Shown here: in pieces, positions 8,667-26,242 of the stretch | How the letters are laid out: each line of letters starts with the position of its first letter | Numbering within the stretch: the first letter of the stretch is position 1 | IMG/VR virus record: IMGVR_UViG_3300050821_006390 | Coordinates: 1-33,066 of that record | Length of the DNA: 33,066 bases | Direction: 5' to 3' (one strand) | Origin: a virus | Notes under the pieces: generated by a model | What the model saw: the letters and a program-made list of their open reading frames with translations, nothing else | What the model was told of the DNA's origin: nothing | The model's database searches: none | Program-made: the position numbers and the translations under genes

Positions 8667-8673
8667 ATGGGTT

Positions 8674-8710: not shown

Positions 8711-8738
8711 GATACGCTAAAGCTCAATGAATAGGGCC

Positions 8739-10953: not shown

Positions 10954-11011
10954 CGAGCCGACCGTGAAGGTCAGCTTCATGTTGCCGCCGATGAAAGGCA
11001 AAGACGAGTGA
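10775..11011 (+). CDS. +1-frame continuation of the same gene (true coding from about 10880)
   Basis: This frame is open from at least 10775, but only its last ~45 codons look coding: IPPKPRVIEERSDHDGGGN, then HFNEPTVKVSFMLPPMKGKD. G/C-rich third positions resume there and the stop (TGA 11009-11011) makes a GTGA overlap with the next gene, the normal junction here. No plausible start codon lies in the coding-quality part. An AGGAGG sequence at 10856-10861 sits shortly before the likely switch point. Either ribosomes shift +1 between about 10870 and 10900, or one base has been lost there by mutation or sequencing error. Confidence 0.55.
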   Translation: MPSTTIMRSCARKSRCRPWPSAPRSRFRRKHWRAPKIPPKPRVIEERSDHDGGGNIGHFNEPTVKVSFMLPPMKGKDE

Positions 11012-12171
11012 CCGATCCCGCCCCGCCCGACGCCATCCTGAGCCCCAACGCCGCCCTGCCGGCGCTGCAGAAGTGGTTCGGCGACCAGATGGTCGAGATC
11101 TGGAAGGCATGGCCGATCGGCGAGAAGGACAAGCCCTGGATCGTGCTCACCTGCCCGGTATGGGGTCCATACGTCGCGCCCTTCATCAACTACGTCGTGC
11201 CCACGCTTCTCTCGCCCGAGAATGTCACCGCACTGGCGCCCTGCTGGATCGTGATCTGGACCGATGCGCAGGGCTGGCCGGTCATCTGGGAGAACATGCA
11301 TCGCCTCGAGGCGCACGGCCTGAAGCTCGTGCTGAACCTCATCCCTGATTACGTCATGGCCGAGCTCGCCAAGCACGACAGCAATAAATACTGGGGCCTT
11401 TCCGTTGCCCATAACCTCGGCATGCGCGTCTCGGGCCGCATCGGTGCCGGTTTCCACATGCTTGCCCCCGACCACCTCTACGGCCCGAGATATTTCAAGA
11501 ACCTCAAGCGGCTGTCTGCCTCCTACGACATCGTGGCCCAGACCGGCGTGTCCTCGAACCGCGACACCGTCCTGCCCGAGCTGCAGCAGTACCGCCATCC
11601 GCGCGGCTGGATCGAGGTGCCCGACCGCGAACTCGGCAACCTCGCCTGGACGCATCTTCATCCGCAGACCCAGGCCTACATCATGAACAATGCCGAGCCG
11701 CCCGACCTCATGCCGGGCGCGCATTTCCTCGTCTGGCAGGGCGAGGATTATCTTGCGACGTATTGCTGCCATCAGAACGCCAGCTGGCTCTCCCCTCGCG
11801 TCTGCATCCAGGCCCCCAACTTCATCCCGGCCACCATTGACACCCGCCTGCCCTACTTCGCCGAGGATTTCTACGTGCCTCGCATTGAGGACGAGATGTG
11901 CTTCATCGAGTTCTCCGGCGCCAACAAGTTTGCCCAGAAAGGTCTCGTGAACGCCCATGCCTTCGCCGCGCGCTGTTGGGCGCAGACCGGCTTCAGCACT
12001 AAGTACCTGCCTTACTTCATGTGGCCCTCCCTGACCCCGATCCATCCGCAGAAGGGCTTCATGACCGATGGCGCGATCAGGAAACAGCATCGCGAGGTCG
12101 CCGAGGCCTTGCTGGCGGTGAAGCCGCCGGTCTGGATGGAGACCCTGCAGTCGATGATGGTGCCGACGTGA
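11008..12171 (+). CDS. Glycosyltransferase-like protein A (phage paralogue family)
   Basis: A 387-residue cytoplasmic-type protein and the first of three paralogues (others at 17470 and 18522). Shared blocks are: CPVWGPY ... VVPTLLSPEN (49-71), a strand IVIWTDAQ (81-88), GAGFHMLAPDHLYGPRYFKN in the middle, and HFLVWQGEDY ... CHQNASWLSPRVC ... IEDEMCFIEFS toward the C-terminus. A Rossmann-like start followed by TD and PDH acidic sites resembles GT-A glycosyltransferases, which move a sugar from a nucleotide donor. This is inference, since no exact family is recalled. It starts with GTG in a GTGA overlap. It lies upstream of terminase large subunit, 3.4 kb before the rest of the sugar/methyl block. 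A hydrolase or another nucleotide-sugar enzyme remains possible. Confidence 0.6.
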   Translation: MTDPAPPDAILSPNAALPALQKWFGDQMVEIWKAWPIGEKDKPWIVLTCPVWGPYVAPFINYVVPTLLSPENVTALAPCWIVIWTDAQGWPVIWENMHRLEAHGLKLVLNLIPDYVMAELAKHDSNKYWGLSVAHNLGMRVSGRIGAGFHMLAPDHLYGPRYFKNLKRLSASYDIVAQTGVSSNRDTVLPELQQYRHPRGWIEVPDRELGNLAWTHLHPQTQAYIMNNAEPPDLMPGAHFLVWQGEDYLATYCCHQNASWLSPRVCIQAPNFIPATIDTRLPYFAEDFYVPRIEDEMCFIEFSGANKFAQKGLVNAHAFAARCWAQTGFSTKYLPYFMWPSLTPIHPQKGFMTDGAIRKQHREVAEALLAVKPPVWMETLQSMMVPT

Positions 12172-12173
12172 TC

Positions 12174-12350
12174 ATGACCACTACTTGCGGCATGTGCCGC
12201 ACACAATGGATCCAGCCCTACGACGAAACCCATACCGAAAACTGCCCCATGGCGAAATTTCCGGTGCCGCGGAAGGCAATCGATTCGGCGACCGAGGAAT
12301 GTCTGCGCCGCATCGTGCGGGAGGAACTCGAACGGATCCTGAAGCCATGA
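12174..12350 (+). CDS. Small zinc-finger-like protein, 58 aa
   Basis: A 58-residue protein with CxxC at C5/C8 and a possible second pair H20/C24 (THTENC), a plausible zinc site. The rest is helical (SATEECLRRIVREELERILK). ATG 12174 begins just after the upstream stop; GTG 12168, in a GTGA overlap, would add two residues. It probably binds nucleic acid or protein; nothing more can be said. It opens a run of four tiny genes before terL. Confidence 0.65.
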   Translation: MTTTCGMCRTQWIQPYDETHTENCPMAKFPVPRKAIDSATEECLRRIVREELERILKP

Positions 12351-12526
12351 GCATTTCCACGGCCGACGCCAGGCATCTGCAGGATCTAGCGCGCGATTGG
12401 GCCTATGCCCGCCGCGAACTGGCTTCGCACGATTTCGACAAGTCGAAGACATGGGATCCTGTAATCGTGCAGAGGCTCGCCAGCGCCGAGGCAGCCTTGG
12501 CGCGTTTTGTCATGGAGCTCGAATGA
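12347..12526 (+). CDS. Hypothetical helical protein, 59 aa
   Basis: A 59-residue protein at an ATGA overlap. Two helices (ADARHLQDLARDWAYARREL and VQRLASAEAALARFVMELE) suggest a helical hairpin, perhaps a dimer. No motif is recognised. It ends in an ATGA overlap with the next gene. Confidence 0.65.
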   Translation: MSISTADARHLQDLARDWAYARRELASHDFDKSKTWDPVIVQRLASAEAALARFVMELE

Positions 12527-12705
12527 TCAGCGAGCACGAGCGCCTCGATGCCCACCTGCGCGCTCTCGAGCGCCGCGGCCCGCCCAGTGGACCGATCGTC
12601 TGTCTGCCGTTGATGCGCCTGCCGTCCGAGCCGGTCGACAAGAGCGCGGTCCTGCACATGAAGGAGCTGCTGGCGCGCACCCTGGCCTGGATGAAGGAGT
12701 GGTAG
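12523..12705 (+). CDS. Hypothetical protein, 60 aa
   Basis: A 60-residue protein at an ATGA overlap. It has a helix (SEHERLDAHLRALERR), a proline-rich turn (GPPSGPIVCLPLMRLPSEP) and a final helix (AVLHMKELLARTLAWMKEW). Family not recognised. The stop TAG is followed directly by the next ATG. Confidence 0.65.
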   Translation: MISEHERLDAHLRALERRGPPSGPIVCLPLMRLPSEPVDKSAVLHMKELLARTLAWMKEW

Positions 12706-12706
12706 A

Positions 12707-12988
12707 ATGACCGAGGAAGAGATCACCGACATCGCCGTCGCGACGAAGCAGATCAAGAACCTCTGCGACAGCATCAATGCGCTTGTCGACGAGAAGCACA
12801 AGCTCATGACTGTCAACGATCGCATGGCCCGCGAGCTCAAGGCCTGCATCGCCGAGAAGGGCGAGCTGCAGAAGCAGCTGGCGCTGAAATCAAGCTTGCT
12901 GGAAGATTACCGACATGATGCTGATGTGTGGCGTGGGGTCAATGAAGACCTGCGCAAGCAACTGGCGGAGTACCCGGAAAAAGACTAG
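12707..12988 (+). CDS. Coiled-coil protein, 93 aa
   Basis: A 93-residue, almost fully helical protein with heptad-like spacing (ATKQIKNLCDSINALVDEKH, RMARELKACIAEKGELQKQL, LEDYRHDADVWRGVNEDLRK). It is probably a dimeric or trimeric coiled coil. Placed before the terminase large gene, it could assist packaging or be a small virion component, but nothing specific shows this. It begins one base after the upstream stop. Confidence 0.75.
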   Translation: MTEEEITDIAVATKQIKNLCDSINALVDEKHKLMTVNDRMARELKACIAEKGELQKQLALKSSLLEDYRHDADVWRGVNEDLRKQLAEYPEKD

Positions 12989-13057
12989 CCTCCCGGCCAC
13001 ATGTTCTGGAAACGGAAATCGACCCGCACCCTCATCCTTGAACTGGGAGATAAGATC

Positions 13058-13312
13058 ATGGCTGTTGCAGCAGACTTCGTGGCGGTTGCCGCCACCCTTT
13101 CCGCCGAAGTGTCTCAGCTCTCGACCGACGTCAATGCCGCGGTCGCCGAGATCACCGCCCTGGTGGCCGCAGCCGGCGGCGGCGGCGTCAATCCGGCCGA
13201 TCTCGACGCGCCCTTGAAGTCGCTGCAGGACGCCGCGACCGCGCTGGCCGCGGCCGATACCGCGCTCAAGGCCGCCCCGCCGGCTCCGACCCCGGCGCCG
13301 CCCGCCGCCTGA
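13058..13312 (+). CDS. Ala-rich helical protein, 84 aa
   Basis: An 84-residue protein with a helical, Ala/Val-rich core (VAATLSAEVSQLSTDVNAAV, AEITALVAAAG), then a Gly linker and helix (LDAPLKSLQDAATALAAADT) ending in a Pro/Ala tail. Small proteins of this plan are common next to phage packaging and head genes. I chose ATG 13058 because GGGAGA precedes it by seven bases. The in-frame ATG 13001 would add a basic 19-residue N-terminus (MFWKRKSTRTLILELGDK) but has no ribosome-binding site. Function unknown. Confidence 0.7.
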   Translation: MAVAADFVAVAATLSAEVSQLSTDVNAAVAEITALVAAAGGGGVNPADLDAPLKSLQDAATALAAADTALKAAPPAPTPAPPAA

Positions 13313-13315
13313 TGC

Positions 13316-15028
13316 ATGGCGCTGCTCGCCAACATCGCGGGCAAGCCGGTCGACGTCGACTGGGCCATGCTCGAGCTCGACCGCGTCGACTATGAGCAGA
13401 GCCTGTATGAGTTTCTGAAGGCTGCTTGGCGTTTCATCGACCCGGCGCCGTTCATCGGCGGCTGGGCCATCGAGGCGATCTGTGAACATCTGGAGGCAGT
13501 ATGCGACGGAGAGATAAAACGCCTGCTGATCAACATCCCGCCTCGAATGTCAAAGTCGTCGGTGACCAGTGTGGCTTTTCCCGCCTGGGTATGGGCGCAG
13601 CGGGACGAATCGCCCACCTCTGGCCCAAGGGTCCCGTTCCTGCACGCGAGCTACGGTTACGATCTGGCGATCAGGGACAGCGTGAAGTGCCGAAGGCTGC
13701 TGCGCTCGACGTGGTACACGAAACTGTGGGGTCACCGCTTCCAGATCGTCAAGGAGCAGGACCAGAAGGCCAGGTTCCGAAACTCCGTCGATGGCGAACG
13801 CTTGATTACCGCGATCGGTTCAAGGGTGACCGGTGAAGGCGGCCAGATCATCGTCGTCGACGACCCTAACGCCGCCAACGAGGTTTTAAGTGAAGCGACC
13901 ATCAAGACGACTAACGAAGAGTGGTGGGACGGCTCGATGCCGACCCGCCTCAACGATCCACAGACCGGCGCCTTCATCGTCATCCAGCAGCGCCTGGGTG
14001 AAGAGGACCTGACCGGTCACATCCAGCGCAAGGATCTTGGCATCGGCGACTGGACCCAGCTCATCCTGCCGATGCATTACGATCCCGATCGCGCGGCCGA
14101 TCTCTATCCAAACCGGATCGGCTGGTCCGATCCGCGTACCGAGAAAGACGAACTTTTAGCGCCTGAGCGCATGCCCGAGATCGTCGTCGCCGAGATCGCG
14201 CGCAGCCTGGGCTCGTGGCGGGCCGCCGGCCAGCTCGAGCAGAGGCCCGAGCCGCAGGGCGGCGGCATCATCAAGCGCACGGACTGGCAGCTCTGGCCGC
14301 CCGAGGGCGAGAAGCGCGACAAGGCGGGCAACATTCCGCGGCCCGCCGACTATCCGCCGATCGACTATGTGCTGGCAGGGCTCGATACCGCCTACACTGA
14401 GAACACCATGAACGATCCCAGCGCCATGACGGTGTGGGGCGTCTTCTCGGGCGACCCGGTGGCGCAGGACGTCCATGTGACGCCGCAGGATACGATGAGG
14501 GTGTATGGCCGGGCGAGCCCGCGCGTCATCCTGATGGATGCCTGGAGCGAGCACCTCGATTTCCGTTCGCTGCTCTTGAAGGTGGCGCAGACCTGTCATC
14601 GCTGGAAGATCGACAAGCTCGTCATCGAGAACAAGGCGGCCGGGCATTCGATCGGCCAGGAAATCCGCCGGCTCATGACCGAAGGCACGATCCAGGATCC
14701 GGCGATGATCGACCTCTTCAAGCGGACCTACGCCATCCAGCTGATCGACCCCAAGGCGATCGACAAGGTGGCCAGGCTCTATTCGATCCAGCACATATTC
14801 GAAGACAAGCTGATCTACGCGCCCGAGCGCCCGTGGTCGGAGCTGGTGATCGACCAGTGCGCGGTTTTCCCCAACGCCAAGCACGACGATCTCACCGATA
14901 CCGTGAGCCTCTGCCTGCGCCACCTGCGCGAGATGAACATGCTGGAGCGTGGGCTGGAAATGACCGCTGCGCTCAACGAGGAATTGCGCTACAAAGGACG
15001 TCCGCCAGCCAAGTTGTATCCCAGCTGA
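13316..15028 (+). CDS. terL: Terminase large subunit
   Basis: A 570-residue packaging motor that translocates DNA into the prohead and cuts it. The N-terminal ATPase has a Walker A variant PPRMSKSS (75-82), common in this terminase group in place of the GKS type. Walker B is IIVVDD (178-183). The C-terminal RNase H-like nuclease (Terminase_6C type) starts at about residue 350. Likely metal ligands are D357 in AGLDTAY, E439 in VIENKAAG, and D525/D528 in HDDLTD. The gene is full length for the family. It starts at ATG 13316, three bases after the upstream stop, and is followed by a short gap. It is separated from the small subunit by 4.6 kb of small genes and a glycosyltransferase-like gene. 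Confidence 0.93.
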   Translation: MALLANIAGKPVDVDWAMLELDRVDYEQSLYEFLKAAWRFIDPAPFIGGWAIEAICEHLEAVCDGEIKRLLINIPPRMSKSSVTSVAFPAWVWAQRDESPTSGPRVPFLHASYGYDLAIRDSVKCRRLLRSTWYTKLWGHRFQIVKEQDQKARFRNSVDGERLITAIGSRVTGEGGQIIVVDDPNAANEVLSEATIKTTNEEWWDGSMPTRLNDPQTGAFIVIQQRLGEEDLTGHIQRKDLGIGDWTQLILPMHYDPDRAADLYPNRIGWSDPRTEKDELLAPERMPEIVVAEIARSLGSWRAAGQLEQRPEPQGGGIIKRTDWQLWPPEGEKRDKAGNIPRPADYPPIDYVLAGLDTAYTENTMNDPSAMTVWGVFSGDPVAQDVHVTPQDTMRVYGRASPRVILMDAWSEHLDFRSLLLKVAQTCHRWKIDKLVIENKAAGHSIGQEIRRLMTEGTIQDPAMIDLFKRTYAIQLIDPKAIDKVARLYSIQHIFEDKLIYAPERPWSELVIDQCAVFPNAKHDDLTDTVSLCLRHLREMNMLERGLEMTAALNEELRYKGRPPAKLYPS

Positions 15029-15057
15029 GCGGTGGGCGGCCTCTCAGCATTTCTGAC

Positions 15058-15070
15058 GGAGGCTAAATTG
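15058..15070 (+). promoter_or_regulatory. Ribosome-binding site that fixes a TTG start
   Basis: GGAGG at 15058-15062 is followed after five bases by TTG 15068-15070. The TTG begins the conserved N-terminus MCDYSL. The alternative in-frame start 36 bases upstream (GTG 15032) has no such site. Confidence 0.75.
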
Positions 15071-15475
15071 TGCGATTATTCTCTTGAAGCCTACAAATCC
15101 CAGGACGCCGAAGTCGGCGAAAAGTACAAGCTGCATCGCTTTCCGTCGGGCACCTTCGGCCTCCAGGTCGAAGGCACGGCCAATGAGTATGGCTGCGGCA
15201 CCGCGGCCTGCCTGAAGGAAGGCAGCAGGCTCCTGGTGTCCGGCATCGCCAGCACCTGCCCGGCCGGCGAGGGCATGGGACCGGTCGAGGAAGTCATCTT
15301 CGTCAAGGTCGACAAGGATGCCAACACCCGGCACCACGATGCCGTGCGCTTCAGCAATGATCGGATCGTGACGCTCCAGTCGCTGGGCGCAGGCGCAGAG
15401 ATCACGCTCCTGTCGCTGCCCGAGGAGAAGCTCGAGAAGCAGTACATGTGGACGCCTGAATTCATCGAAGCCTGA
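15068..15475 (+). CDS. 'MCDYSL' family protein with TTG start
   Basis: A 135-residue protein beginning MCDYSLEAYKSQDAEVGEKY and continuing with a beta-rich domain (HRFPSGTFGLQVEG, EEVIFVKVDKD, IVTLQSLGAGAEITLLSLP). I recognise the MCDYSL opening and the following pattern from a widespread alphaproteobacterial family of unknown function. In such proteins the Cys right after the initiator Met would be exposed if Met is removed, so it may be functional. The TTG start is supported by GGAGG five bases upstream and by the conserved start. It lies just after terL and before a terminator hairpin, so it may be the last gene of the packaging transcript. Confidence 0.75.
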   Translation: MCDYSLEAYKSQDAEVGEKYKLHRFPSGTFGLQVEGTANEYGCGTAACLKEGSRLLVSGIASTCPAGEGMGPVEEVIFVKVDKDANTRHHDAVRFSNDRIVTLQSLGAGAEITLLSLPEEKLEKQYMWTPEFIEA

Positions 15476-15483
15476 CGATTTCG

Positions 15484-15508
15484 CCCGGACCGTCATTGAC
15501 GGTCCGGG
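15484..15508 (+). terminator. Stable hairpin, likely intrinsic terminator
   Basis: Arms 15484-15494 (cccggaccgtc) and 15498-15508 (gacggtccggg) are perfect 11-bp complements around a three-base loop (att). TT then CTACGCTGTT follow, a weak U-run, so termination may be partial. It lies nine bases after the stop of the MCDYSL gene and before the methyltransferase/glycosyltransferase block, which it may set apart as a separate transcriptional unit. Confidence 0.7.
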
Positions 15509-15531
15509 TTCTACGCTGTTAAGCTGATTGG

Positions 15532-15759
15532 ATGATCACCACCCCTGCCCAGGCGACCGTCGAGCCCGGCGACATGCTGACCGGCGGCGGCGAGCGCTGG
15601 TGGACGGTGCGGGTGTGCACGCCGCCTGGCTGGCCGAAGCAGCAATCCCGCATCTACCAGGTCAGGGCATTCACCGACGCGCAGGCGGGGCAGCTCGGCC
15701 TTGATCGTTTCAGCCAGGAGATCGACGGCCGGCCGCAAGGCCAGATATGGATGGGATGA
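15532..15759 (+). CDS. Hypothetical protein, 75 aa
   Basis: A 75-residue protein, the first gene after the terminator hairpin. It opens with ITTPAQATVEPGDMLTGGGE and continues with a beta-rich domain (RWWTVRVCTPPGW, SRIYQVRAFTDAQAGQLG). It ends LGLDRFSQEIDGRPQGQIWMG. No family is recognised. It overlaps the O-methyltransferase-type gene by four bases at the start used here. Confidence 0.65.
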   Translation: MITTPAQATVEPGDMLTGGGERWWTVRVCTPPGWPKQQSRIYQVRAFTDAQAGQLGLDRFSQEIDGRPQGQIWMG

Positions 15760-16499
15760 TGAACCAGTTTCTGCCGCCGCATCAGACCGCCTATCACAAT
15801 CGTGATCGTTTACTGCCGAATCAAATATTGATGCAGCAATTTTTCAAAGGCATCGATTTCATCGGCGCTTTGGAGCGCGTCACCAATTCCGTCCTGCCGA
15901 TCAAGTCTGTGCATGAGAAGTTCGACATCCAGCTGAAGCCCGGCATGACCTACGAAACGCTGGGCTCCGATCTCTCCACCCTGCATTTCCTGCAGCTGCT
16001 GGTGCGCCTAACCAATACATACCTGATCCTGGAAGTGGGAACCTACATCGGCGTGTCGACGATGTTCTTGGCCGAGGCGGCCGGCGAATACGGTACGGTC
16101 ACAACGATCGAGGCAGGCGAGGAATTCGCTGAAATTGCTGCAGCTAATTTCATGCGCAATCATTTTCAGGATCAGCGGGAGCGCATTATCCTGAAGCAGG
16201 GCGATGCGGCGGAAATCTTGCGGCAGGGTCCGGGCAACTATTATCATTTGATTTTTCTCGATGGCGCCAAGCAGGACTATGACAAGCTGCTGCCAAAGTG
16301 TCTTACCTATTTGTGCCGCGGCGGTTTGCTCGTGGTCGACGACGTTTTCTGCCAGGGCGACACGCTCAACGAGAAGCCGACCACCGACAAGGGCCGTGGC
16401 GTGCGTGCTTTGCTGGATTTCGTCAGCCTCACGACTGATCTGTCGCCGGTGATCCTGCCGTTCGGCGACGGGCTGCTCCTGCTGCGGAAACCGACATGA
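15756..16499 (+). CDS. SAM-dependent O-methyltransferase (COG4122 / caffeoyl-CoA OMT-like)
   Basis: A 247-residue class I methyltransferase. The SAM-binding motif I is ILEVGTYIGVST (about 91-102). E119 in TTIEAG is the likely ribose-binding acid. FLDGAKQDY (about 167-175) and VVDDVF (about 193-198) are the metal/substrate region typical of the Methyltransf_3 and Methyltransf_24 families, which use Mg2+ and methylate hydroxyls. The N-terminal 60 residues are extra helical sequence that could hold the acceptor. The acceptor is unknown; with glycosyltransferase-like neighbours a sugar hydroxyl is a reasonable guess. Start 15756 gives the ATGA overlap usual here; ATG 15747 would add three residues. 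Confidence 0.85.
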   Translation: MMNQFLPPHQTAYHNRDRLLPNQILMQQFFKGIDFIGALERVTNSVLPIKSVHEKFDIQLKPGMTYETLGSDLSTLHFLQLLVRLTNTYLILEVGTYIGVSTMFLAEAAGEYGTVTTIEAGEEFAEIAAANFMRNHFQDQRERIILKQGDAAEILRQGPGNYYHLIFLDGAKQDYDKLLPKCLTYLCRGGLLVVDDVFCQGDTLNEKPTTDKGRGVRALLDFVSLTTDLSPVILPFGDGLLLLRKPT

Positions 16500-16573: not shown

Positions 16574-16703
16574 TCCAAGCGCCAACACCTGGTTCACCCT
16601 GTCGCTGATGGCGCGGCACGACGGCAATCGCCTGCAGACATGGTCGCGACGGGTCAGCGTTGACACGACGACAGGCGTCCGCTTCGGCTGGTACTGGGCT
16701 TGA
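16563..16703 (+). CDS. Hypothetical protein, 46 aa
   Basis: ATG 16563 to TGA 16701-16703, 46 residues: MSSNPSANTWFTLSLMARHD, then GNRLQTWSRRVSVDTTTGV and the end RFGWYWA. It reads like a small beta-hairpin protein with many aromatic residues. G/C-rich third positions and the one-base overlap with the next ATG (TGATG) support it. Family not recognised. Confidence 0.55.
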   Translation: MSSNPSANTWFTLSLMARHDGNRLQTWSRRVSVDTTTGVRFGWYWA

Positions 16704-17473
16704 TGGAGACGACGATGAATGATTTTGCATGGATTTCGCCTCAGCCGCCTGTGCCTGCTGCGGAGAAGGGTGCAAACCTTCGTCTAGACGAAATAGATGA
16801 TTTGATTAAGCGGGTCATCGCCGAGGTGCGGCCCTGGACCATGGTGCCGGATGAAGGCTTGGCTACCACCATCAGGCTCGCGCTCGGCGCCATCGATGCC
16901 GGCATCCCTGGCGATCTGGTCGAATGCGGCGTGTGGAAAGGCGGTTGCAGCTTCGCCATGCTTCTGGCCCAGCGCTACGCCTTCGGCGAGATCCGTCGGC
17001 CGGTCTGGATGTATGACAGCTTCCAGGGCATGGGCGCGATCAGCCCGCAGGATGGCGAGCATGCACGCTGGTGGAAGCAGCGCTCGCTTTCCGGTGCGCC
17101 GGATCCTGACAAGCAGGATTACTGTGCTGCATCGCTCGCGGAAGTTCGCAACAACGTAGCCAGGTTAGACTTCAACGAACATGTCAGGATCGTACCAGGG
17201 TGGCTGCAGGCGACGTTGTCGAACATTGTGCCCGAGAAGATCGCCGTGCTGCGCATCGATTGCGACTGGTATGAACCGGTGAAGTGCGTGCTCGAGGAGC
17301 TGGCGCCGCTGGTCTCGACTGGTGGCCCGATCATCCTCGACGACTATGGCATCTGGGAAGGCTGCACGCTTGCAACGCACGAATACCTGGCGAAGCACCA
17401 ACTGCCGTGGGCGATCAAATCGTCGCCCAATGATACCGGTGTGTGGATGATCAAGACGAAGGCAAACTGGTGA
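16703..17473 (+). CDS. TylF/MycF-type O-methyltransferase
   Basis: A 256-residue protein with the signature blocks of the macrocin-O-methyltransferase family (TylF): GDLVECGVWKGG (about 70-81), the SAM site; YDSFQGM (104-110); LRIDCDWYEPVKCVLEEL (183-200); and ILDDYGIWEG (211-220). Known members methylate hydroxyls of deoxysugars on macrolides or of polysaccharide sugars, using SAM and Mg2+. The paired Asp residues in RIDCDWYE and DDYG are the expected metal ligands. In this phage it most likely methylates a sugar, the best clue that the block acts on glycans. ATG 16703 overlaps the upstream stop. ATG 16715 has GGAG six bases before it and is a real alternative. Confidence 0.87.
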   Translation: METTMNDFAWISPQPPVPAAEKGANLRLDEIDDLIKRVIAEVRPWTMVPDEGLATTIRLALGAIDAGIPGDLVECGVWKGGCSFAMLLAQRYAFGEIRRPVWMYDSFQGMGAISPQDGEHARWWKQRSLSGAPDPDKQDYCAASLAEVRNNVARLDFNEHVRIVPGWLQATLSNIVPEKIAVLRIDCDWYEPVKCVLEELAPLVSTGGPIILDDYGIWEGCTLATHEYLAKHQLPWAIKSSPNDTGVWMIKTKANW

Positions 17474-18519
17474 GCATTCCCCATCACCCTCTGATCGATC
17501 AGTGGTACCAGGAGGAGCTGCAGCAACACCGTCATCAGCGCGAGGATGCCGGCGTCGTCATGGGCTTCCCGCTGTGGGGCGAAGCCTACGAGCAGCGTTT
17601 CCTGAACTATATGCTGCCGTCGATCCTGGCACCGGCTAACCGTGCAGCGCTTAAAGCTGCAAAATATGAAATTGTGCTTTATGTCGACAGACAAACTTTC
17701 AACACGGTGTGGACTGCGGACATAGTCGAGAACGCGCCAATTTATTTGCGCCAGATGCCTGACGCCATCGCCGACCTGCTCCATCGCAGTCCCGAGTGGA
17801 AGTACAGCCTGATGTCGGCAGTTCATAATCTCCTGATCCACCAGGCGGCGCAGAAGGGCGCCGGCTTCGGCATGGCGGTATCAGACATCGTTTACTCGAG
17901 CCGCTATTTCGAGCACCTGTTGGCGCTTGGCCGCACGCACGATGTCATCGTCCATCAGGCGCTGATCGTCAGCCAGGACAAGTTTGAAGCTGATCTTTTT
18001 GACTGGGCTAAGGTGGATGGTGCGCTATCAATTTCAGCGGTTGAACTTGGCACTGTTGGCTGGATACATGCCTCCGGCTTGATGAAGAGCTGGAACATGA
18101 ACGACATCGAAAATCTGGCTGAAGGCGTTCCCGGTACGCATTTCGTGCTGTGGCGCGGCAAGGACAGCATTCGCATGCACTGCCCGCACCTGACGCCGGT
18201 CTGGCTCAGCAACAAGGCCTGCCGTGAGGCGCCGACCGACATCGGCGATACGCTCGACGCGCGCTTCCTGGGCTCGGCTTACATGCCGACGCTCGAGGAC
18301 GACATGGCATTGATCACGATCGACAACTCGCGCGACGCGCCGGCCGATAAGGCGACTTTCGATTTGTTCAGGCACAATCTGCTGGCGCATTTCGCGGCCT
18401 GCATGCCGCAGTTCAAAGTGCCGTGCATGGTGCCGACTTTGCCGGCGACCGACGGCTTCCTGCCCGACGACGTGATCGAGCAGCGTTTTCAAAAACTCTG
18501 CGGCCTTCTAGGAGTGTGA
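17470..18519 (+). CDS. Glycosyltransferase-like protein B (phage paralogue family)
   Basis: A 349-residue member of the same family as the proteins at 11008 and 18522. Shared blocks are FPLWGEAYEQRF ... LPSILAPANRAAL (33-61), the strand IVLYVD (68-73), AVHNLLIHQ, SDIVYSSRYFEHL, HFVLWRGKDSIRMHCPH, WLSNKAC, and LEDDMALITI. It is closest to the protein immediately downstream (both have PLWGExY, LPSILAPANRxAL and WRGxDxIRMHC). This suggests a tandem duplication. The PDH of its relatives is SDI here, a change at a site that may bind metal, so substrate or activity may differ. It starts with GTG 17470 in a GTGA overlap with the TylF-type gene; upstream ATG 17443 lies inside that gene. Confidence 0.6.
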   Translation: MSIPHHPLIDQWYQEELQQHRHQREDAGVVMGFPLWGEAYEQRFLNYMLPSILAPANRAALKAAKYEIVLYVDRQTFNTVWTADIVENAPIYLRQMPDAIADLLHRSPEWKYSLMSAVHNLLIHQAAQKGAGFGMAVSDIVYSSRYFEHLLALGRTHDVIVHQALIVSQDKFEADLFDWAKVDGALSISAVELGTVGWIHASGLMKSWNMNDIENLAEGVPGTHFVLWRGKDSIRMHCPHLTPVWLSNKACREAPTDIGDTLDARFLGSAYMPTLEDDMALITIDNSRDAPADKATFDLFRHNLLAHFAACMPQFKVPCMVPTLPATDGFLPDDVIEQRFQKLCGLLGV

Positions 18520-18521
18520 GC

Positions 18522-19550
18522 ATGGATATCGTCGCCTGGTACACCAAGGAGTATCTCGCCAAGCGCTTTTATCGCGGCTCGCCGCGCCTGGTCATAGGCT
18601 GCCCGCTGTGGGGCGAGACCTACACCGAATGGTTCATGAAATACTGCCTGCCGTCGATCCTGGCGCCGGCCAATCGCAAGGCGCTCGACGATGCCGGCTG
18701 GCGACTGATCCTCTACACCGATCAGCAGATCGGCCTGCCGTCCGGCGTTCCGATCGAGATCAGGGGACTGCCCGAGGGCTACGCCGAGGCGATCGCCGAG
18801 AACGGCCACGAGAAATTCAAGATCGTCGCCGTCGTGCACAACCTCCTGGTCCATGAGGCCGGGCGTTATCCTGATGCCGGCTTCCACATGCTGCTGCCGG
18901 ATCACGTCTATTCCGAGCGATTTTTCGCCAACCTGTTGTGGTTGGCCTGGAAGCATCCGGCGATCGTGCAGACCAGCCTGACCTGCGTGGAAAGTAAAAT
19001 CGGACCGATGCTAGAGCACTATCGGCAGGCCGATGGTTCGCTGCCTGTTCCAGCTTCAATACTGGGTATGCTGGGCGAGCAAACCATGACCGATCAATGG
19101 CGTTCCTGGTCGCTCGACGGCAACGACAAGCTCAGAAAAATGCCCAACACCGATTTTATCTTCTGGCGCGGCTACGATCACATCCGCATGCATTGCGCTC
19201 ACCAGAACCTGATGTGGCTTTCCCCCAACCGCTGCCGCCATGCCGACACCAACGTCGGCGGCACGCTCGACAGCGAGCTGCCGCGCTATACCCACAACTA
19301 CTGCTTCTCGCCCCAGGTCGAGGACGACATGGGCTTTATCGCCCTGTCGGGCGGCGGCGAGCCGGCGCCGATCGTGCCTTTTGCCAAGTTCCGCAAGGAT
19401 TTCTGGGCGAACCTCGACGGGAATAAAGACTTTGAAAAGTACGTCCGCACGCCCTGCTTCCTCCCCTGTGAACCGGCCGATGGCTTTCCGAGCGGCAAAG
19501 AGCTAGACTTCAAGTTTCAGCAGGTGATGCGGAAACTTGAAGAGGTCTGA
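18522..19550 (+). CDS. Glycosyltransferase-like protein C (phage paralogue family)
   Basis: A 342-residue third paralogue. The blocks are CPLWGETYTEWF ... CLPSILAPANRKAL (28-54), the strand LILYTDQQ (62-69), VVHNLLVHEAG, FHMLLPDHVYSERFFANLLW, DFIFWRGYDHIRMHCAHQN, WLSPNRC, GGTLD and VEDDMGFIALSGGG. PDH and TD sites are kept, as in protein A. The recurring EDDM near the C-terminus and the W-R-G-x-D block are probably active-site features. Assignment to a GT-A-type fold is inference. It begins two bases after protein B's stop and ends one base into the portal gene (TGATG-type junction), so it is translated with the portal. Confidence 0.6.
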   Translation: MDIVAWYTKEYLAKRFYRGSPRLVIGCPLWGETYTEWFMKYCLPSILAPANRKALDDAGWRLILYTDQQIGLPSGVPIEIRGLPEGYAEAIAENGHEKFKIVAVVHNLLVHEAGRYPDAGFHMLLPDHVYSERFFANLLWLAWKHPAIVQTSLTCVESKIGPMLEHYRQADGSLPVPASILGMLGEQTMTDQWRSWSLDGNDKLRKMPNTDFIFWRGYDHIRMHCAHQNLMWLSPNRCRHADTNVGGTLDSELPRYTHNYCFSPQVEDDMGFIALSGGGEPAPIVPFAKFRKDFWANLDGNKDFEKYVRTPCFLPCEPADGFPSGKELDFKFQQVMRKLEEV

Positions 19551-21844
19551 TGGCACCCCCGCTCGACGCCGGCCTGGTCCCCAGTTCAGCCGAGGATGAC
19601 GGCCCGCTCGAGGTCGAGCTTCTGGACCACGAGCCGGGCGAGGATAGGCCTGTCACCGATGATGACGGCAATATCCTGCACATCGAGCATGCCGATGGCG
19701 AGATCACCGTCAGCGTCGATGGCAATCCGATCGCCCGTCTCAACGACAATCCCAACCCGCCCAAGTGGTTCGACAATCTGGTCGATCACATCGATCGGAT
19801 GCAGCTCGGCATCATCTGCAACGACCTGATCGATGGCGTGAAGCAGGACATCGAGAGCCGCACCGAATGGATGGACCAGCACGTCCAGGCCCTGAAGATG
19901 CTGGGCTGGAAGCTCGAAGTGCCGAACCAGACCAGCGATGCCGCCGACGGTGCGGTCGACGGCACGTCGACGGTGCGGCATCCGATGCTGCAGGAAGCGG
20001 TGCTGCGTTTCTGGGCCAATGCTGATGCCGAGATGCTGCCGGCCGACGGTCCGGTCAAAGTACGCGACGACGACAACAATGGCGACACGCCGCGTGATCA
20101 GCTGGCAAACGCCTACATGACCGATTTCAACCACTTTCTGACAGTGGTGGCCAAGGAATTCCAGCCTGACACATCGCGCATGCTGTTGAAGGTCGGCTTT
20201 GGCGGCGCCGGTTTCAAGAAAGTCTATTACTGCCCGCAACGCAATCGCCCGGTCTCCGAATCGGTCGACGTCGAGGATCTGATCGTCAGCAACACGGCGA
20301 CCAGTCTGGAGACGGCCCGGCGCATTACCCATCGCATCATGATGGCGCCCAACACCGTGAAGCGCATGCAGGTGCTGGGTATCTATGCCGACATGCCGCT
20401 CGGCATACCGGCCGAGGCTGACTATGATCCCCTGAAGGAGGAGAAGGCCGCGCAGCAGGGTGTCCGCATCTCGACCATGCGCGCGGAGGATCGCGACCGC
20501 GAAATCTGGGAGATCTATTGCGAGCGCAACATTGCGGGTTTCGAGCACAAGAAGGGGCTCGAGGTGCCCTACCGCATCACCATCGATTATTCGAGCAAGC
20601 AGGTGCTGGCGGTGGTGCGCAACTACGACAAGGGCACCGAGCAGCTGCCGATCCCGTTGATCCCCTTCGTGATGTACACCTTCGTGCCGAATTTCGGCTT
20701 CTGGCCGATCGGCCTGCTGCACATCATGGCCAACATGACGAACGCCAGCACGGCGGCGTGGCGTATCATGCTCGACAACGGCATGTTCGCCAATTTCCCC
20801 GGTTTCCTGATCGCCCAGGCCGGTATGCGGCAAGAGACGTCGGTCATCCGCGTGGCGCCGGGCACAGGCGCTGCGGTCAATACCAACGGCATGCCGATCA
20901 AGGATGCCGTGATGCCGCTGCCTTACAAGACCGAGGGCCAGGCAGCGCTTATGTCGCTCAACCAGGACATCGTGGGCCAGGCGCAGCGGGTCGGCATGAC
21001 GGCCGAGCTGCCGGTGTCGGAGGGCCGCGAGGACACGCCTGCCACTACCATGCTGGCGATGATCGAACAGGCGCAGAAGCAGCTGATGGCCGTGCACAAG
21101 GGCCTGCATCGATCCCAGGCCGAGGAATTCAATAAGATCGCCGATGTCTTTCGGAAGCATCCTGAGAGTTTTTGGCAGTGCAACAAACGCCCGGCCCATC
21201 CGTGGGACGAAGAGACGCTTCTGCGCGCGCTCGATGACTGCAACCTGGTGCCGCGGAGCGATCCCAACACCGCTTCGCAAATGCATCGGTTAGTCAAGGT
21301 CGCTGCGCTGAAATTCCTCGCCAGCACCAATCCGCAGCAGTGGGACAATATCGCGATCGATACCGCCGCGGTCGAGGCGATCGGCTTCAGCAATCCGACG
21401 CGCTTCTTCGCGCCGCCACAGGCGATGACCCAGCCGTCGCCCGAGGATGCCGCCAAGAATCGCGAGCTCGACATCAAGCAGGCGTTGGCGCAGGCCCAGA
21501 TGGTGAAGGCGCAGTCGAGCGCCCAGAAGGATCAGGCGACGGCCGGTATCGCCAACCAGAAGTTCCAGCTCGACAGCGTGCTGGGCGAAGGCGACATGAA
21601 GATCAAAGCAGCCAAGACGCAAGGCGAGCTGGCGCTTGATCAGCGCAAGGCTGACGATGCACGCGAGAAGGACTTGATTGCCGAGCGCGTCCAGCTGGTC
21701 GACGTCGCCCAGAACCTTGCCGTGCATCCCGAGAGCGCGGCCCTGGTCGAACCTTTGATCCGTCCGGCATTCGAGGATGTGCAGCGCCGCCAGAACGAGC
21801 ATGAGGCTAAGAAGACGGCCGGTCTTGTGCCGCCGGGTGTGTGA
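19550..21844 (+). CDS. Portal protein
   Basis: A 764-residue portal, forming the ring at one vertex of the head through which DNA is packaged and to which the tail attaches. Length and layout fit the large podovirus-type portals (P22 gp1 class). Typical features are a mixed N-terminal wing region (FLTVVAKEFQPDTSRMLLKV, FKKVYYCPQRN), clip/stem sequence around YTFVPNFGFWPIGLLHIMAN, then MSLNQDIVGQAQRVG, and a long helical C-terminus rich in Ala, Gln and Lys (ALAQAQMVKAQSSAQKDQAT) that could form the barrel. The first 60 residues are acidic and may be flexible. It starts directly at the stop of paralogue C. Confidence 0.82.
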   Translation: MAPPLDAGLVPSSAEDDGPLEVELLDHEPGEDRPVTDDDGNILHIEHADGEITVSVDGNPIARLNDNPNPPKWFDNLVDHIDRMQLGIICNDLIDGVKQDIESRTEWMDQHVQALKMLGWKLEVPNQTSDAADGAVDGTSTVRHPMLQEAVLRFWANADAEMLPADGPVKVRDDDNNGDTPRDQLANAYMTDFNHFLTVVAKEFQPDTSRMLLKVGFGGAGFKKVYYCPQRNRPVSESVDVEDLIVSNTATSLETARRITHRIMMAPNTVKRMQVLGIYADMPLGIPAEADYDPLKEEKAAQQGVRISTMRAEDRDREIWEIYCERNIAGFEHKKGLEVPYRITIDYSSKQVLAVVRNYDKGTEQLPIPLIPFVMYTFVPNFGFWPIGLLHIMANMTNASTAAWRIMLDNGMFANFPGFLIAQAGMRQETSVIRVAPGTGAAVNTNGMPIKDAVMPLPYKTEGQAALMSLNQDIVGQAQRVGMTAELPVSEGREDTPATTMLAMIEQAQKQLMAVHKGLHRSQAEEFNKIADVFRKHPESFWQCNKRPAHPWDEETLLRALDDCNLVPRSDPNTASQMHRLVKVAALKFLASTNPQQWDNIAIDTAAVEAIGFSNPTRFFAPPQAMTQPSPEDAAKNRELDIKQALAQAQMVKAQSSAQKDQATAGIANQKFQLDSVLGEGDMKIKAAKTQGELALDQRKADDAREKDLIAERVQLVDVAQNLAVHPESAALVEPLIRPAFEDVQRRQNEHEAKKTAGLVPPGV

Positions 21845-24549
21845 TGGGCGACGAACGCGAAAATTTGGCGCAGAAAGCCATCGCGCACTTTGGCACGACG
21901 CATAATCCGGCTGAATCAGGTTATATTATGCCAGGTGGGCAGCATCTTGATCTGACAGGTCGGCACTACGCTACCGGCTACACGAACAAGCGTCCTAATC
22001 CGGGGCAGCCGGACTATCTTCGCGGTACACGCTCGGTCGATCATCGCGAACTACCGGATGAGTTGTCGCCGAAAGGTGGAACGGAAGGCATGTTCGATTT
22101 CATGCATCGTTCCGGTGCTGTACGACACATGCCTGAAAGCCCCGGCATATCGGCTGTGACGATGCCGACTGATGCGCAGTTGAAGGCGGCAGTACGCGCG
22201 CATGGTCGCGGCACTTTTTACGCTGACGCAGAACATCCGCATACGATGGAGACATTGGGCTCAGAAGAATTTGAGCGACCGACCGTCGAAAAACTTCGCG
22301 CGTTTTTTAAGAAACATCACGCACGACAGCAGAAAGCTGAAGGTGGTCCTGTCGATGACCCTGACCAACCGCAGCGTCAGCTCTCGCCGGTCGGGCTCTA
22401 CAGCCATGCCGCCGACGTTGTTCAGAAATTCCCGCAGATGCGCGGAACTCCTGCTCAGTTTAAGGCGATGCTCACCAAGCAGGGCGTCAAGCCCGACGAG
22501 TTCAAATACTCCAATTACGATCAGGCTTTCGCCGGCAAGCCGATGGTGACCAAAGATGAACTGACGCAGCACTTCAATGCCAGCGTGCCGCCGGTCCGGG
22601 AGACAACGCTTACTAACACCCCGGCTCGCGAACTGGCCGCTCGTGCAGGGCGCCCATGGGAATCTTTGACCGAAGCTGAGCGCGACCGTTTCAGGGACGA
22701 ACACGAATCACACCCGTCTACCAAATTCGATCAATACACCCTCCCCGGCGGCACGAACTACCGCGAAACGCTGCTGCATCTGCCGCCCAAGTATGGCACA
22801 TGGATCAATGGTGATCCTGTCACCGCAGAAGATATCGCGACGCCACATGGACGTGATACTGCGGCGCGGGTGGCTGGCTACAGTGACGACACCTATAAGT
22901 CTGGGCACTGGGACACGCCCAACGTGCTCGCCCACCTGCGCATGTCCGATCGCGCGCTGCCGGGCGGCCAGAAGGCGCTGCACCTGGAGGAGCTGCAATC
23001 GGATTGGGCACAGGAGGGACGGAAGAAAGGATTTAAGGGCAGTTACGGTTCGAACGATCTGGCTGAAGCAACTGACCCGCACAATATGAGTGCGAGAGAT
23101 CGCGACACCCACTGGTATATTCGCTCGCCTGACAACGTGTACCGCATCGCTAAGGAGAAACATCCGACGTTAGCTGGTGCAATGGCTTACATTCGTCGAG
23201 AAAAACCGATCAATGCTAGCGGCGTGCCGGACGCGCCCTACGTCGACAGCACGCAGAAGTGGGTCGATCTCGGCCTGAAGCGAGCGTTGTACGAGGCGGC
23301 GAAGGGCGGCTACCACAAGCTGGTGATGACGCCGGGCGAGGAGCAGGCGAAGCGCTACGATCTCAGCAAACATGTCAACGGTGTTCGCTATTTCCCTGAG
23401 ACACAAAATCTTCAGGCGACGTTGCATAACGGGCGCAAAGGCATTGATGAGCACAATGTAAAACCTGAAGACGTGGAAAAATTCGTCGGCAAGGATGTCG
23501 CCAAGAAATTACTCGCTGTACCGGCAAAGCAAACCGGCATGTTTCCGTATCCGCATCATTTTCTCGGCGGTCTCGATCTCAAAGTCGGCGGCGAGGGCAT
23601 GAAGGCATTTTACGACAAGATGCTGCCGGCTGCGCTGGAGAAGCTCGCAAAGAAGCACGACCCCGAGGCGAAGGTACACCTACATGGCCAGAAGGCATCG
23701 GTCGATGCGCGACCACGCTCGTGGGGACATTTCAGCGACTGGGTGAGTAGTCATCCCGAGCATCAAGGCATGACGAGGGATCGTCAATATCAGGCGTGGA
23801 CCAGTGGTCGCAGGAGTCCGTTGGTTAAAGAATTTCTTGATAAGGATAAGGCGGAAGCCGGTCTGCACTCCCTCGATATCACGCCGAAGATGCGCGAGAG
23901 CATCCTTAAGGGCCAGCCGGCCTATGCCGGGGGCGGCAAGGTCGAAACACCGGAGGTCGCCGCACCAGAGCCTGCGGAAACGCCAAAGGCCCCGATCGTA
24001 TCGTTGGCCGATCTGAAGCGCGTCGGCGAGACCTGGGGCTATAACAGCCCGCATTTCATCAAGGCGCGCGAAGCCCATGACAAGCCGCCCGAACCGGAAC
24101 TAAAGGCCGACGGCGCCCCGGTCGAGGCCGAGAAACCCGAGGAACGTATCGTCGGCGCCCTCAAGGACTGGCTGCGAGAGGAACGCGCGACAGGTGGCGT
24201 AGTCGGGCTCGTCCCGCATATGCATGCCGGTGCTGGCAGCGGCGCCGGGCGACTCGAGAAGATGCGCCGCCAGAGCGGCGATTTGAGCCCAAATCAGAAG
24301 CTTCTGCCGCTCGATGGCGATCCGCTGATTGAAAAAGCCCTGGCATTGGCTCAGGATGCGACCGCCTACAAGAACGGTGGTGCGGTGGAGAAGGCTGCCG
24401 ACAAGCAGGAGCTGGAGAAGCTGGAGGCGACGATCGCCCGCCAGGGCGATGCCATCGACAAGCTGACCAGGCTCCTGTCGGCGCCGCAGATCGTCGAGCG
24501 TGACGAGAACAACCGCATCAAGAGGATATACCGGGAGATGCCGAAGTGA
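21844..24549 (+). CDS. Large polyvalent virion-associated protein, 901 aa
   Basis: A 901-residue modular protein. Residues about 380-600 hold a domain I know from large phage proteins: LEELQSDWAQEGRKKGF (about 381-397), WVDLGLKRALYEAAKGGYHK, VMTPGEEQAKRYDLSKHV, and GGLDLKVGGEGMKAFYDKML (from 575). It occurs in polyvalent proteins that are often carried in the virion and may be ejected with DNA; activity is unknown. Short Gly-Gly motifs (AEGGPV, YAGGGKV, ATGGVV, KNGGAV) are scattered along it. The block HAGAGSGAGRLEKM (24223-24264) recurs in the Gly/Pro-rich protein at 29112. The C-terminus is a coiled coil (KQELEKLEATIARQGDAIDK). The gene is somewhat less GC-biased in its first third. Start ATG 21844 (TGATG) was preferred to GTG 21841. 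Confidence 0.7.
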   Translation: MGDERENLAQKAIAHFGTTHNPAESGYIMPGGQHLDLTGRHYATGYTNKRPNPGQPDYLRGTRSVDHRELPDELSPKGGTEGMFDFMHRSGAVRHMPESPGISAVTMPTDAQLKAAVRAHGRGTFYADAEHPHTMETLGSEEFERPTVEKLRAFFKKHHARQQKAEGGPVDDPDQPQRQLSPVGLYSHAADVVQKFPQMRGTPAQFKAMLTKQGVKPDEFKYSNYDQAFAGKPMVTKDELTQHFNASVPPVRETTLTNTPARELAARAGRPWESLTEAERDRFRDEHESHPSTKFDQYTLPGGTNYRETLLHLPPKYGTWINGDPVTAEDIATPHGRDTAARVAGYSDDTYKSGHWDTPNVLAHLRMSDRALPGGQKALHLEELQSDWAQEGRKKGFKGSYGSNDLAEATDPHNMSARDRDTHWYIRSPDNVYRIAKEKHPTLAGAMAYIRREKPINASGVPDAPYVDSTQKWVDLGLKRALYEAAKGGYHKLVMTPGEEQAKRYDLSKHVNGVRYFPETQNLQATLHNGRKGIDEHNVKPEDVEKFVGKDVAKKLLAVPAKQTGMFPYPHHFLGGLDLKVGGEGMKAFYDKMLPAALEKLAKKHDPEAKVHLHGQKASVDARPRSWGHFSDWVSSHPEHQGMTRDRQYQAWTSGRRSPLVKEFLDKDKAEAGLHSLDITPKMRESILKGQPAYAGGGKVETPEVAAPEPAETPKAPIVSLADLKRVGETWGYNSPHFIKAREAHDKPPEPELKADGAPVEAEKPEERIVGALKDWLREERATGGVVGLVPHMHAGAGSGAGRLEKMRRQSGDLSPNQKLLPLDGDPLIEKALALAQDATAYKNGGAVEKAADKQELEKLEATIARQGDAIDKLTRLLSAPQIVERDENNRIKRIYREMPK

Positions 24550-24875
24550 GGAGCAAGCGGGACCAGCAGGGTGAATTGCTCATCGATCACACTTTCTCGC
24601 CGGGCATCACGCCGGAATGGGCTGCGGCGCATGGCGCCACGGGGCCGGTTGTCGGCGCCGGCAAGAAGTACGAAAGCGGTCTTATAAACTGCAAGCATTG
24701 CGGCAGCGATGTCCTGCTGCATCCGCAGCGCATGCGCGAGCGCGAGTGGTGCTGGACCTGCGACGCATACATCTGCGACAACTGTGGACTGCTCCGCAAA
24801 CTGGGCGATTATACGCACAAGACGGCGCGCCAGCAGATGGAAGAGGTTTTCAACCGATACCAGAGGAGTTTCTGA
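24546..24875 (+). CDS. Zinc-finger phage protein, GTG start
   Basis: A 109-residue protein with three CxxC pairs: C49/C52, C69/C72 and C77/C80 (CKHCGSD, CWTCDAYICDNCG), enough for one or two zinc sites. I recognise the plan (KRDxxG-xLxIDHxxSPG at the N-terminus, then the Cys block) from small proteins encoded beside portal and capsid genes of many phages. Their function is not established. GTG 24546 overlaps the upstream stop (GTGA) and gives the conserved start. It probably acts in assembly or as a virion component, by position. Confidence 0.8.
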   Translation: MRSKRDQQGELLIDHTFSPGITPEWAAAHGATGPVVGAGKKYESGLINCKHCGSDVLLHPQRMREREWCWTCDAYICDNCGLLRKLGDYTHKTARQQMEEVFNRYQRSF

Positions 24876-24878
24876 ACC

Positions 24879-25397
24879 ATGGGTACATCAGTCTTTGAAA
24901 CCGGCGCCCTTACGACCGGCGCGGGCACCGCCGATAACGTCTCGCTCACCACGCTCAATTTCATGGCTATCCAGGGCGGCACGGCCACGCAGGCGAGCTT
25001 CGTGGAAGAGGTCTACATGGGCGGCCAGGCCACGGCTTCGGCGCCTACCATCATGCTGCTCGGCCGCGACAGTACCGTGGGCGTCGGCATGGTGGCGCTC
25101 GTGACGCCGAATTCCTTCGGTCTGACCAATCCGTCGGGTGCCGTCGTCACGGCCATACCGGTTGCCTTCGTCACGGCCAGCGGCACGCAGCCCATCCGGT
25201 CCAATTCGGTGACGCTCGCCAAGAAGAATTTCACGTTCAATTCGTTTGGGGGCATCGTCAAAGCCTCCTACCAGAACACCCAGGATCGTTTCGGCATCAT
25301 CGGCAGCACGGCGTCGCTGGGCGAGCTTTCGCTCTCGGCTTTCACCGGCACGACGACCAGCTCGATTGGCGCACACATCATCATCGAGGTCATGTGA
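24879..25397 (+). CDS. Probable virion surface protein (beta-rich), 172 aa
   Basis: A 172-residue protein made of Thr/Ser/Ala/Gly-rich beta strands (TSVFETGALTTGAGTADNVS, LGRDSTVGVGMVALVTPNSF, VAFVTASGTQPIRSNSVTLA). It ends in LSLSAFTGTTTSSIGAHIII. The composition is typical of phage head-decoration or other exposed structural proteins. A GAGGAG site (24863-24868) lies ten bases upstream of ATG 24879, suggesting higher expression than its coupled neighbours. It immediately precedes, and overlaps by four bases, a glycosyltransferase gene, which makes its many Ser/Thr residues candidate acceptor sites (inference). Confidence 0.7.
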   Translation: MGTSVFETGALTTGAGTADNVSLTTLNFMAIQGGTATQASFVEEVYMGGQATASAPTIMLLGRDSTVGVGMVALVTPNSFGLTNPSGAVVTAIPVAFVTASGTQPIRSNSVTLAKKNFTFNSFGGIVKASYQNTQDRFGIIGSTASLGELSLSAFTGTTTSSIGAHIIIEVM

Positions 25398-26242
25398 AAA
25401 TCTCCGTCATCGTTGCGACGCGCGGTCGTTCACAGCGTGCCGCCGGCGTGATCGAGTGCGCGCGCAGCTTCCTGTGCGGTGCGCACGACGTTCAGTTCAT
25501 CGTGGCAGTTGATACCGATGATCAGAAATCTGCCGCTTATTTTTCCGAGTATCCTGGTGTAACCCTCTATATGCAGCCGAGACCGATCGGCGTCGGCGAC
25601 GTCTGGAACCGGGCCGCGAAGGCCTATCCGGCGGATTTCTACTTGGCGCTTCCCGACGATGCCTGGATCTGCACGCCATATTGGGACGCCATCATGATCC
25701 AGATCCTGCTGGTCGGGCCGCATCCCATTCCGGTGAAGCTCGGCATCGTCGGCTGGATGGACCCCCTGCAGCCGGCCATCTGCTCCATTTTCGGCATGAC
25801 GCAGAAGTGGGTCGACGTGAATGGTCACATCTTCGACCCGCGCTATCCGTTCTGGTGGGGCGACGTAGCCCTCGTCGAGACGGCGATCTTCGCCACGGCA
25901 GAGGGCATGCCGGGGACTGATCAGCTCAAGTTCGCGAGCCAGCCGGGCAACTTCAACCCGCATCTACGCGACATGGAATTGTGGTGGGCGTTTTTCGCTG
26001 CAACACGCCACGAGCGGATCGCGACGGCGCGGCGTCTCGGAATGCCTCCGGTCGATGACGACATGATGGAGCTCCTGGTCAAGGAGTGCGAAGAGCGCGA
26101 CGCGATGGGTCTTCGCCAGATACCGCAGGTTCTCGCCACGATTCATCATCCGGCGCCGCCGACGAAGGAATACCTGATCGCCAAGGCGCAGGCCGAGGAA
26201 TATTTGCGGAATGCGGGCATCGAGGCACAACGAGCTGCCTGA
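25394..26242 (+). CDS. GT2-like glycosyltransferase
   Basis: A 282-residue protein of the GT-A fold. The N-terminus ISVIVATRGR (3-11) is the classical family 2 opening. IVAVDTDD (36-43) and LALPDDAW (84-91) supply the acidic DxD-type sites that bind the nucleotide sugar through a metal. The middle has GIVGWMDP and WWGDVALVE. It should transfer a sugar from a nucleotide donor in the cytoplasm; no membrane segment is present. GTG 25394 overlaps the stop of the surface-protein gene (GTGA) and its own stop overlaps the SPRY-like gene by one base. Such coupling makes modification of a virion protein a fair guess, as does assisting host-surface change. Confidence 0.85.
   Translation: MKISVIVATRGRSQRAAGVIECARSFLCGAHDVQFIVAVDTDDQKSAAYFSEYPGVTLYMQPRPIGVGDVWNRAAKAYPADFYLALPDDAWICTPYWDAIMIQILLVGPHPIPVKLGIVGWMDPLQPAICSIFGMTQKWVDVNGHIFDPRYPFWWGDVALVETAIFATAEGMPGTDQLKFASQPGNFNPHLRDMELWWAFFAATRHERIATARRLGMPPVDDDMMELLVKECEERDAMGLRQIPQVLATIHHPAPPTKEYLIAKAQAEEYLRNAGIEAQRAA

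Follow-up and report, generated by a model that had tools for sequence, protein, structure and literature searches.

A predicted glycosyltransferase family and putative sugar O-methyltransferases among the packaging genes of an uncultured phage

Why should a tailed phage carry genes for sugar and methyl transfer around and between its terminase and portal genes? The question is raised by IMG/VR virus record IMGVR_UViG_3300050821_006390, a 33 kb (33,066 nucleotide) stretch of DNA, here called the window, from an uncultured bacterial virus. The glycosyltransferases (GTs) and methyltransferases encoded there probably act in one glycan pathway, which is well supported by a predicted fold, by the pairing of GTs with TylF or another methyltransferase in other phages, and by the co-clustering of GTs with an O-methyltransferase (OMT) in bacteria. 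The virion may be the destination of the glycan, a point on which belief and doubt are evenly matched. The fuller proposal, that an undescribed GT-A family and methyltransferases of the TylF and COG4122 types together decorate phage heads with O-methylated glycans, and that several unrelated lineages keep these genes in their packaging region, is tentative and falls somewhat short of an even chance.

All six enzyme genes are open and intact, and they lie among packaging and virion genes as an earlier note on this DNA had claimed, so that the genes for the terminase large subunit (terL) and the portal are surrounded by and interleaved with GT, OMT and TylF genes:

11008-12171, + strand: GTA, predicted glycosyltransferase of a GT-A-fold family, GTG start (28-29% identity to GTB and GTC)
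13316-15028, + strand: terL (phrog_38, E 6e-74; 41% identity to terL of MW202675)
15756-16499, + strand: OMT, O-methyltransferase of the Methyltransf_3/COG4122 type (PF01596, E 1.3e-21; 77 bits against a cut-off of 22)
16703-17473, + strand: TylF-type sugar O-methyltransferase, ATG at 16703 or 16715 (PF05711, E 7.7e-37; 127 bits against a cut-off of 23)
17470-18519, + strand: GTB, paralogue of GTA and GTC (35% identity to GTC, E 1e-68)
18522-19550, + strand: GTC, paralogue of GTA and GTB and the protein that was modelled (AlphaFold2, Foldseek)
19550-21844, + strand: portal of the SU10/podovirus type (PF23899, E 5e-14; 51% identity to MW202675)
25394-26242, + strand: putative GT2-like protein with a GT-A N-terminal half and an LPDDAW motif (phrog_14945, E 6e-6)

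The window additionally contains the other gene of a terminase pair, a GroES-like gene and further head genes, and its best annotated relative is MW202675. The stop-start junctions are as the earlier note described: TylF and GTB overlap by 4 nucleotides, GTC and the portal gene by 1 (TGATG), the gene at 24879 and the GT2-like gene by 4, and the GT2-like gene and the gene at 26242 by 1, while GTB and GTC are spaced by 2 nucleotides. Because approximately 12 of the 35 junctions in the window overlap, the overlaps alone carry little weight, and they were rejected as proof of shared function. The further statement that other explanations of the linkage are hard to find goes too far, given that overlapping junctions are commonplace in this genome and that the gap between terL and the portal gene can host unrelated accessory genes.

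GTA, GTB and GTC are mutual paralogues (28-35% identity, E 2e-43 to 1e-68) for which no meaningful match was found in Pfam, NCBIfam or PHROG, or with the GT profile among PDB sequences. tblastn of GTB and of a related protein from another phage, L093, gave no match in GenBank phages, and the L093 protein gave none in plasmids. As judged from sequence searches, the three proteins represent an uncatalogued family that is in none of the libraries searched (Pfam, NCBIfam and PHROG). A model of GTC, built with AlphaFold2 from 15 phage sequences (predicted local distance difference test score, pLDDT, 93.2; predicted template-modelling score, pTM, 0.92), matches almost exclusively GT-A glycosyltransferases in the PDB (Foldseek, E < 0.001). 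The best matches (E 1.6e-4 to 1e-3, probability 0.9-1.0) are GalNAc-T2, LARGE1, SpsA, the chondroitin polymerase K4CP and TarP, AvpGT is also matched, and among viral models an uncharacterised protein of a phage is matched over the full length (E 1e-17, TM-score 0.72). The family is predicted, through GTC, to have a GT-A fold, which bears out the GT-like identity proposed earlier for the three paralogues, a non-transferase fold not having been found; sugar transfer by these proteins is likewise a prediction from the model. DxD is the metal-binding motif of GT-A enzymes. The phage members lack a classical DxD. All 15 of the phage sequences have Asp127, which directly follows a core strand; it corresponds in alignment to the Asp in an NAD/SD motif of the bacterial relatives and plausibly stands at the position of the metal-binding motif. 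One bacterial relative matches Pfam GT2 weakly across the DxD region (E 0.0018).

The membership of TylF and OMT in their families is, by profile match, unambiguous. TylF had been named as such in the earlier note, which agrees with its similarity to NovP and MycF (E 1e-24), enzymes that methylate antibiotic sugars, and with the retention of the D-x-D and DDY metal-site residues. It differs from these enzymes in its setting: no antibiotic pathway genes are recognised in the window, and antibiotic biosynthesis was rejected on that ground. No match to TylF was found in GenBank phages, and the closest cellular relative found (L106, 49% identity) has neighbours that, read by eye, resemble glycosyltransferase, deacetylase, epimerase and methyltransferase genes. 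The OMT carries an N-terminal extension of approximately 75 residues ahead of the Methyltransf_3 domain and is 55% identical over its full length to the OMT of a bacterial surface-polysaccharide locus, L218.

The GT2-like protein matches Pfam GT2 with an E value of 0.042 and 14.2 bits, below the cut-off of 23.3. In its model the N-terminal 90 or so residues adopt a GT2-like fold with LPDDAW at the end, and the remainder is unreliable (pLDDT 47; two sequences only); no relatives were found besides that of the phage L002, and none in GenBank phages, which explains the poor model. Its gene is flanked by two others whose Ser/Thr-rich products are the first candidates for an acceptor:

24879-25397, + strand: candidate acceptor, 25% Ser/Thr, upstream of the GT2-like gene (composition and 4-nucleotide overlap; 96% conserved in L002)
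26242-26859, + strand: candidate acceptor or fibre, 19% Ser/Thr, downstream of the GT2-like gene (phrog_10080, E 1e-12; only 40% conserved in L002)

Is the grouping of these genes peculiar to one genome? The GT family occurs in the head/packaging region of approximately 12 IMG/VR phages with unrelated terminases. In the close relative L002, the order terL-OMT-TylF-GTB-GTC-portal is kept and the GT2 gene lies downstream of the 24879 homologue; the L002 contig begins inside terL, so that the position of GTA lies outside its coverage. L002 also has two endonuclease open reading frames (HNH-like/GIY-YIG-like, by eye) that the window lacks, one separating TylF from GTB (2595-3044) and the other separating the 24879 homologue from GT2 (11770-12408). 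Three phages found first through TylF (L084, L085 and L086) also carry the GT, which is adjacent to TylF in L085 and L086. In L093, found by the GT alone, TylF is immediately upstream of a double-GT gene, and in L105 the GTs adjoin a different methyltransferase. In L085, L087, L088, L091 and L092 the GT occupies the gap between terL and the portal gene, and in L090 it closely follows terL; no TylF was detected in L087, L088, L091 and L092. Because the terminases and portals of the window, L085/L088 and L086 fall in different PHROGs, this placement recurs in unrelated packaging lineages. The survey of the six genes that the earlier note had proposed therefore finds OMT, TylF, GTB, GTC and GT2 kept together in L002, and GTs with TylF or another methyltransferase in distant phages.

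A similar association is found in bacteria. Profile searches of a class-wide sample of 385 genomes detect the GT family in 20, next to epimerases, GT2 enzymes, acyltransferases and ABC-2 exporters; an earlier pattern scan (A2) of bacterial genomes had given no match and was insensitive, since the profile searches later found relatives. Several of the loci inspected are surface-polysaccharide clusters. One of them, L193, has an ABC-2 permease and ATPase; L196 has GT2, sulphate-activation genes and TylF; and L218 contains two double-GT proteins, TylF, RmlD, a SIS isomerase, a PfkB/cytidylyltransferase and GT2 in addition to the OMT described above. In L233, OMT, GT, GT2 and GT stand in a row with an ABC-2 permease and ATPase nearby, and the surroundings of the GTs in L219-L221 are less clear. 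L218 and L233 thus share with the window the same GT family and the same OMT subfamily with TylF or GT2 alongside, whereas the bacterial loci have exporters, epimerases or sugar-nucleotide genes, none of which are recognised in the 33 kb of the phage. The extended OMT (match over the extension, E < 1e-49) is present in 6 of the 385 genomes, all of them among the 20 with the GT (hypergeometric P 8.9e-9, or 1.7e-7 without the genome of L218, which was part of the OMT profile). A partial OMT match in a seventh genome, at the edge of a contig, comes without the GT, and 6 of 7 then gives P 6e-8. The two genes lie within approximately 9 kb of each other in four of the six genomes and are adjacent in one. 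The loci of G533 and G636 are nearly identical, so that the co-occurrences cannot all be counted as separate events, and the boundary between extended and ordinary OMTs was set after the list was seen. With the conservation in L002 and the repeat of the combination in distant phages and bacteria, the grouping of the cassette genes is more than chance.

A FastTree phylogeny places the phage GTs in one clade (support 0.99) that includes one domain of an L218 protein; GTA groups with the terL-portal GTs of other phages (0.77) and GTB and GTC group with L084 (1.0), and the second domains of the L093 and L105 proteins are placed among bacterial sequences. This topology suggests that GTs have been exchanged with bacterial loci and that copies have accumulated. 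Between the window and L002, the nonsynonymous (dN) and synonymous (dS) divergences are 0.31 and 1.22 for OMT, 0.22 and 0.93 for TylF, 0.13 and 0.80 for GTB, 0.02 and 0.30 for terL, and 0.05 and 0.63 for the portal gene. The OMT-TylF-GTB stretch appears by this comparison to be the fastest to diverge or be exchanged. The dN/dS ratios are 0.09-0.26 (GTB, 0.16) and, being all below 0.3, indicate that the genes are under purifying selection and kept functional.

What might the enzymes make? Soluble GTA, GTB and GTC, probably with the GT2-like protein, would add sugars sequentially in the cytoplasm from nucleotide-sugar donors supplied by the host; TylF, and probably OMT too, would then O-methylate sugar hydroxyls, and the acceptor would most likely be a virion protein. 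We infer the order of these steps, the methyl target and the virion acceptor. No transmembrane segments were detected in the cassette enzymes, and none of the annotated genes of the window shows a strong membrane-spanning stretch; the late head/packaging location, together with this lack of membrane parts for a lipid-linked polysaccharide, favours a virion acceptor. Position alone was rejected as an argument for such a target, a dUTPase-like gene occupying the same gap in MW202675. The earlier proposal of a methylated glycan on the virion or host surface thus holds as to the joint pathway, and the site of the glycan is a weaker conjecture. That the cassette shares its source gene pool with surface-polysaccharide loci of the alphaproteobacterial type, with a virion protein as the most likely acceptor, is a suggestion that could equally well be right or wrong.

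The same bacterial loci raise an alternative in which the cassette edits the host surface polysaccharide, sugars being added to or capped on a lipid-linked glycan at the inner membrane before export, with the consequence that the phage receptor is altered and superinfection or progeny re-adsorption blocked. The GT and OMT relatives lie in surface-polysaccharide loci, some with ABC-2 exporters, L218 combines GTs, TylF and the 55%-identical OMT, and an exporter would be unnecessary in the phage if the host provides one. However, the genes lie in the late head region of phages in which an integrase is mostly undetected, none of the enzymes is membrane-bound, and no genes like gtrA and gtrB, which in seroconversion clusters encode a membrane flippase and a bactoprenol glycosyltransferase, are recognised in the window, although no dedicated search was made; host-surface editing is considered unlikely, while retaining appreciable weight.

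Several observations weigh against a joint pathway directed at the virion. The bacterial relatives of the GTs presumably act on lipid-linked surface glycan, which favours modification of the host surface. TylF and the GT co-occur only weakly in bacteria (5 of 34 genomes, P 0.023), 6 of 11 GT-bearing phage records have no TylF (some are short, so that absence there means little), and among the phage loci examined the window and L002 are alone in having OMT together with the GT. No sugar-nucleotide genes are recognised in the record. The TM-scores of the GTC model against single PDB entries are modest (approximately 0.4), with gappy alignments and remote similarity. The GT2 assignment at 25394 is weakly supported, for the N-terminal half only, which makes this gene the least secure member of the cassette. 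Additionally, the gap between terL and the portal gene accommodates accessory genes in general, as the unrelated dUTPase-like gene of MW202675 illustrates. Some of these points would fit six separate accessory genes sharing a hotspot, some GTs being paired with TylF and the OMT and GT2-like proteins having unconnected roles, for example in the methylation of tRNA, cofactors or small molecules: the OMT family takes in tRNA and catechol-type enzymes, and the GT2-like gene is 6 kb off. Such a coincidence is nevertheless improbable in view of the extended OMT and the GT occurring together in six of six genomes, often at close range.

Glycosylation of modified phage DNA bases, as in T4-like hypermodification, is a further alternative. 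Phage GTs are known to do so, according to work cited in PMC12619734, and a DNA methyltransferase is encoded at 3692-4864. PF00303, the thymidylate-synthase/hydroxymethylase family, is absent from the window and ten related records, most of them possibly fragments; the relatives lie in surface-glycan loci, and the O-methylating enzymes would be left unexplained. DNA glycosylation was therefore disfavoured and is very improbable.

For glycosylation and O-methylation of a virion protein, partial precedents exist. GTs encoded by mycobacteriophages glycosylate proteins of the capsid and the tail tube (Freeman et al. 2023, as cited in PMC11256854 and PMC12619734). The likeness lies in the phage-encoded GTs; as far as these descriptions go, the GTs of Maravista are reported to lie near the 3' end of the genome, whereas the window has its GTs, of an uncatalogued family, among packaging genes and accompanied by TylF and OMT. 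In the chlorovirus PBCV-1, A064R (GT-GT-methyltransferase) acts on the capsid glycan, whose terminal sugar is methylated, as verified biochemically (PMC7019647). Sugar transferases are combined there with a methyltransferase, as in the window, but in one fused protein of a eukaryotic algal virus rather than in separate genes of a tailed phage. Nothing closer was found in the literature on phage glycan methylation. The present analysis defines a predicted glycosyltransferase family, absent from the libraries searched, that is tied to sugar O-methylation in phages. A survey of viruses in marine oxygen-minimum zones counts tylF among the abundant auxiliary genes and assigns it to antibiotic production (PMC8940887); the window suggests another reading for viral tylF genes, namely methylation of phage or host glycans. 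Should the virion carry them, methylated glycans could protect the particles of environmental phages or change their adsorption.

Four further features were observed. The GroES/Cpn10-like co-chaperonin gene (30247-30651; PF00166, E 7.8e-6) lies among head genes, and MW202675 has one too. The methyltransferase at 3692-4864 is an N6/N4 DNA methylase (PF01555, E 1.9e-42), of which a 59%-identical piece is found in the GT-bearing phage L090. In L093, a head morphogenesis protein of 940 residues (6414-9236) contains an intein-splicing domain (PF14890, E 1.8e-10). The region at 27501-29096 of the window encodes a Pro-rich protein with approximately 10 degenerate repeats (IGPTPFAxxDWPLAxxxLPxAKETPPLN), and a counterpart in L094, near 11498-13220, differs from it in sequence and repeat order.

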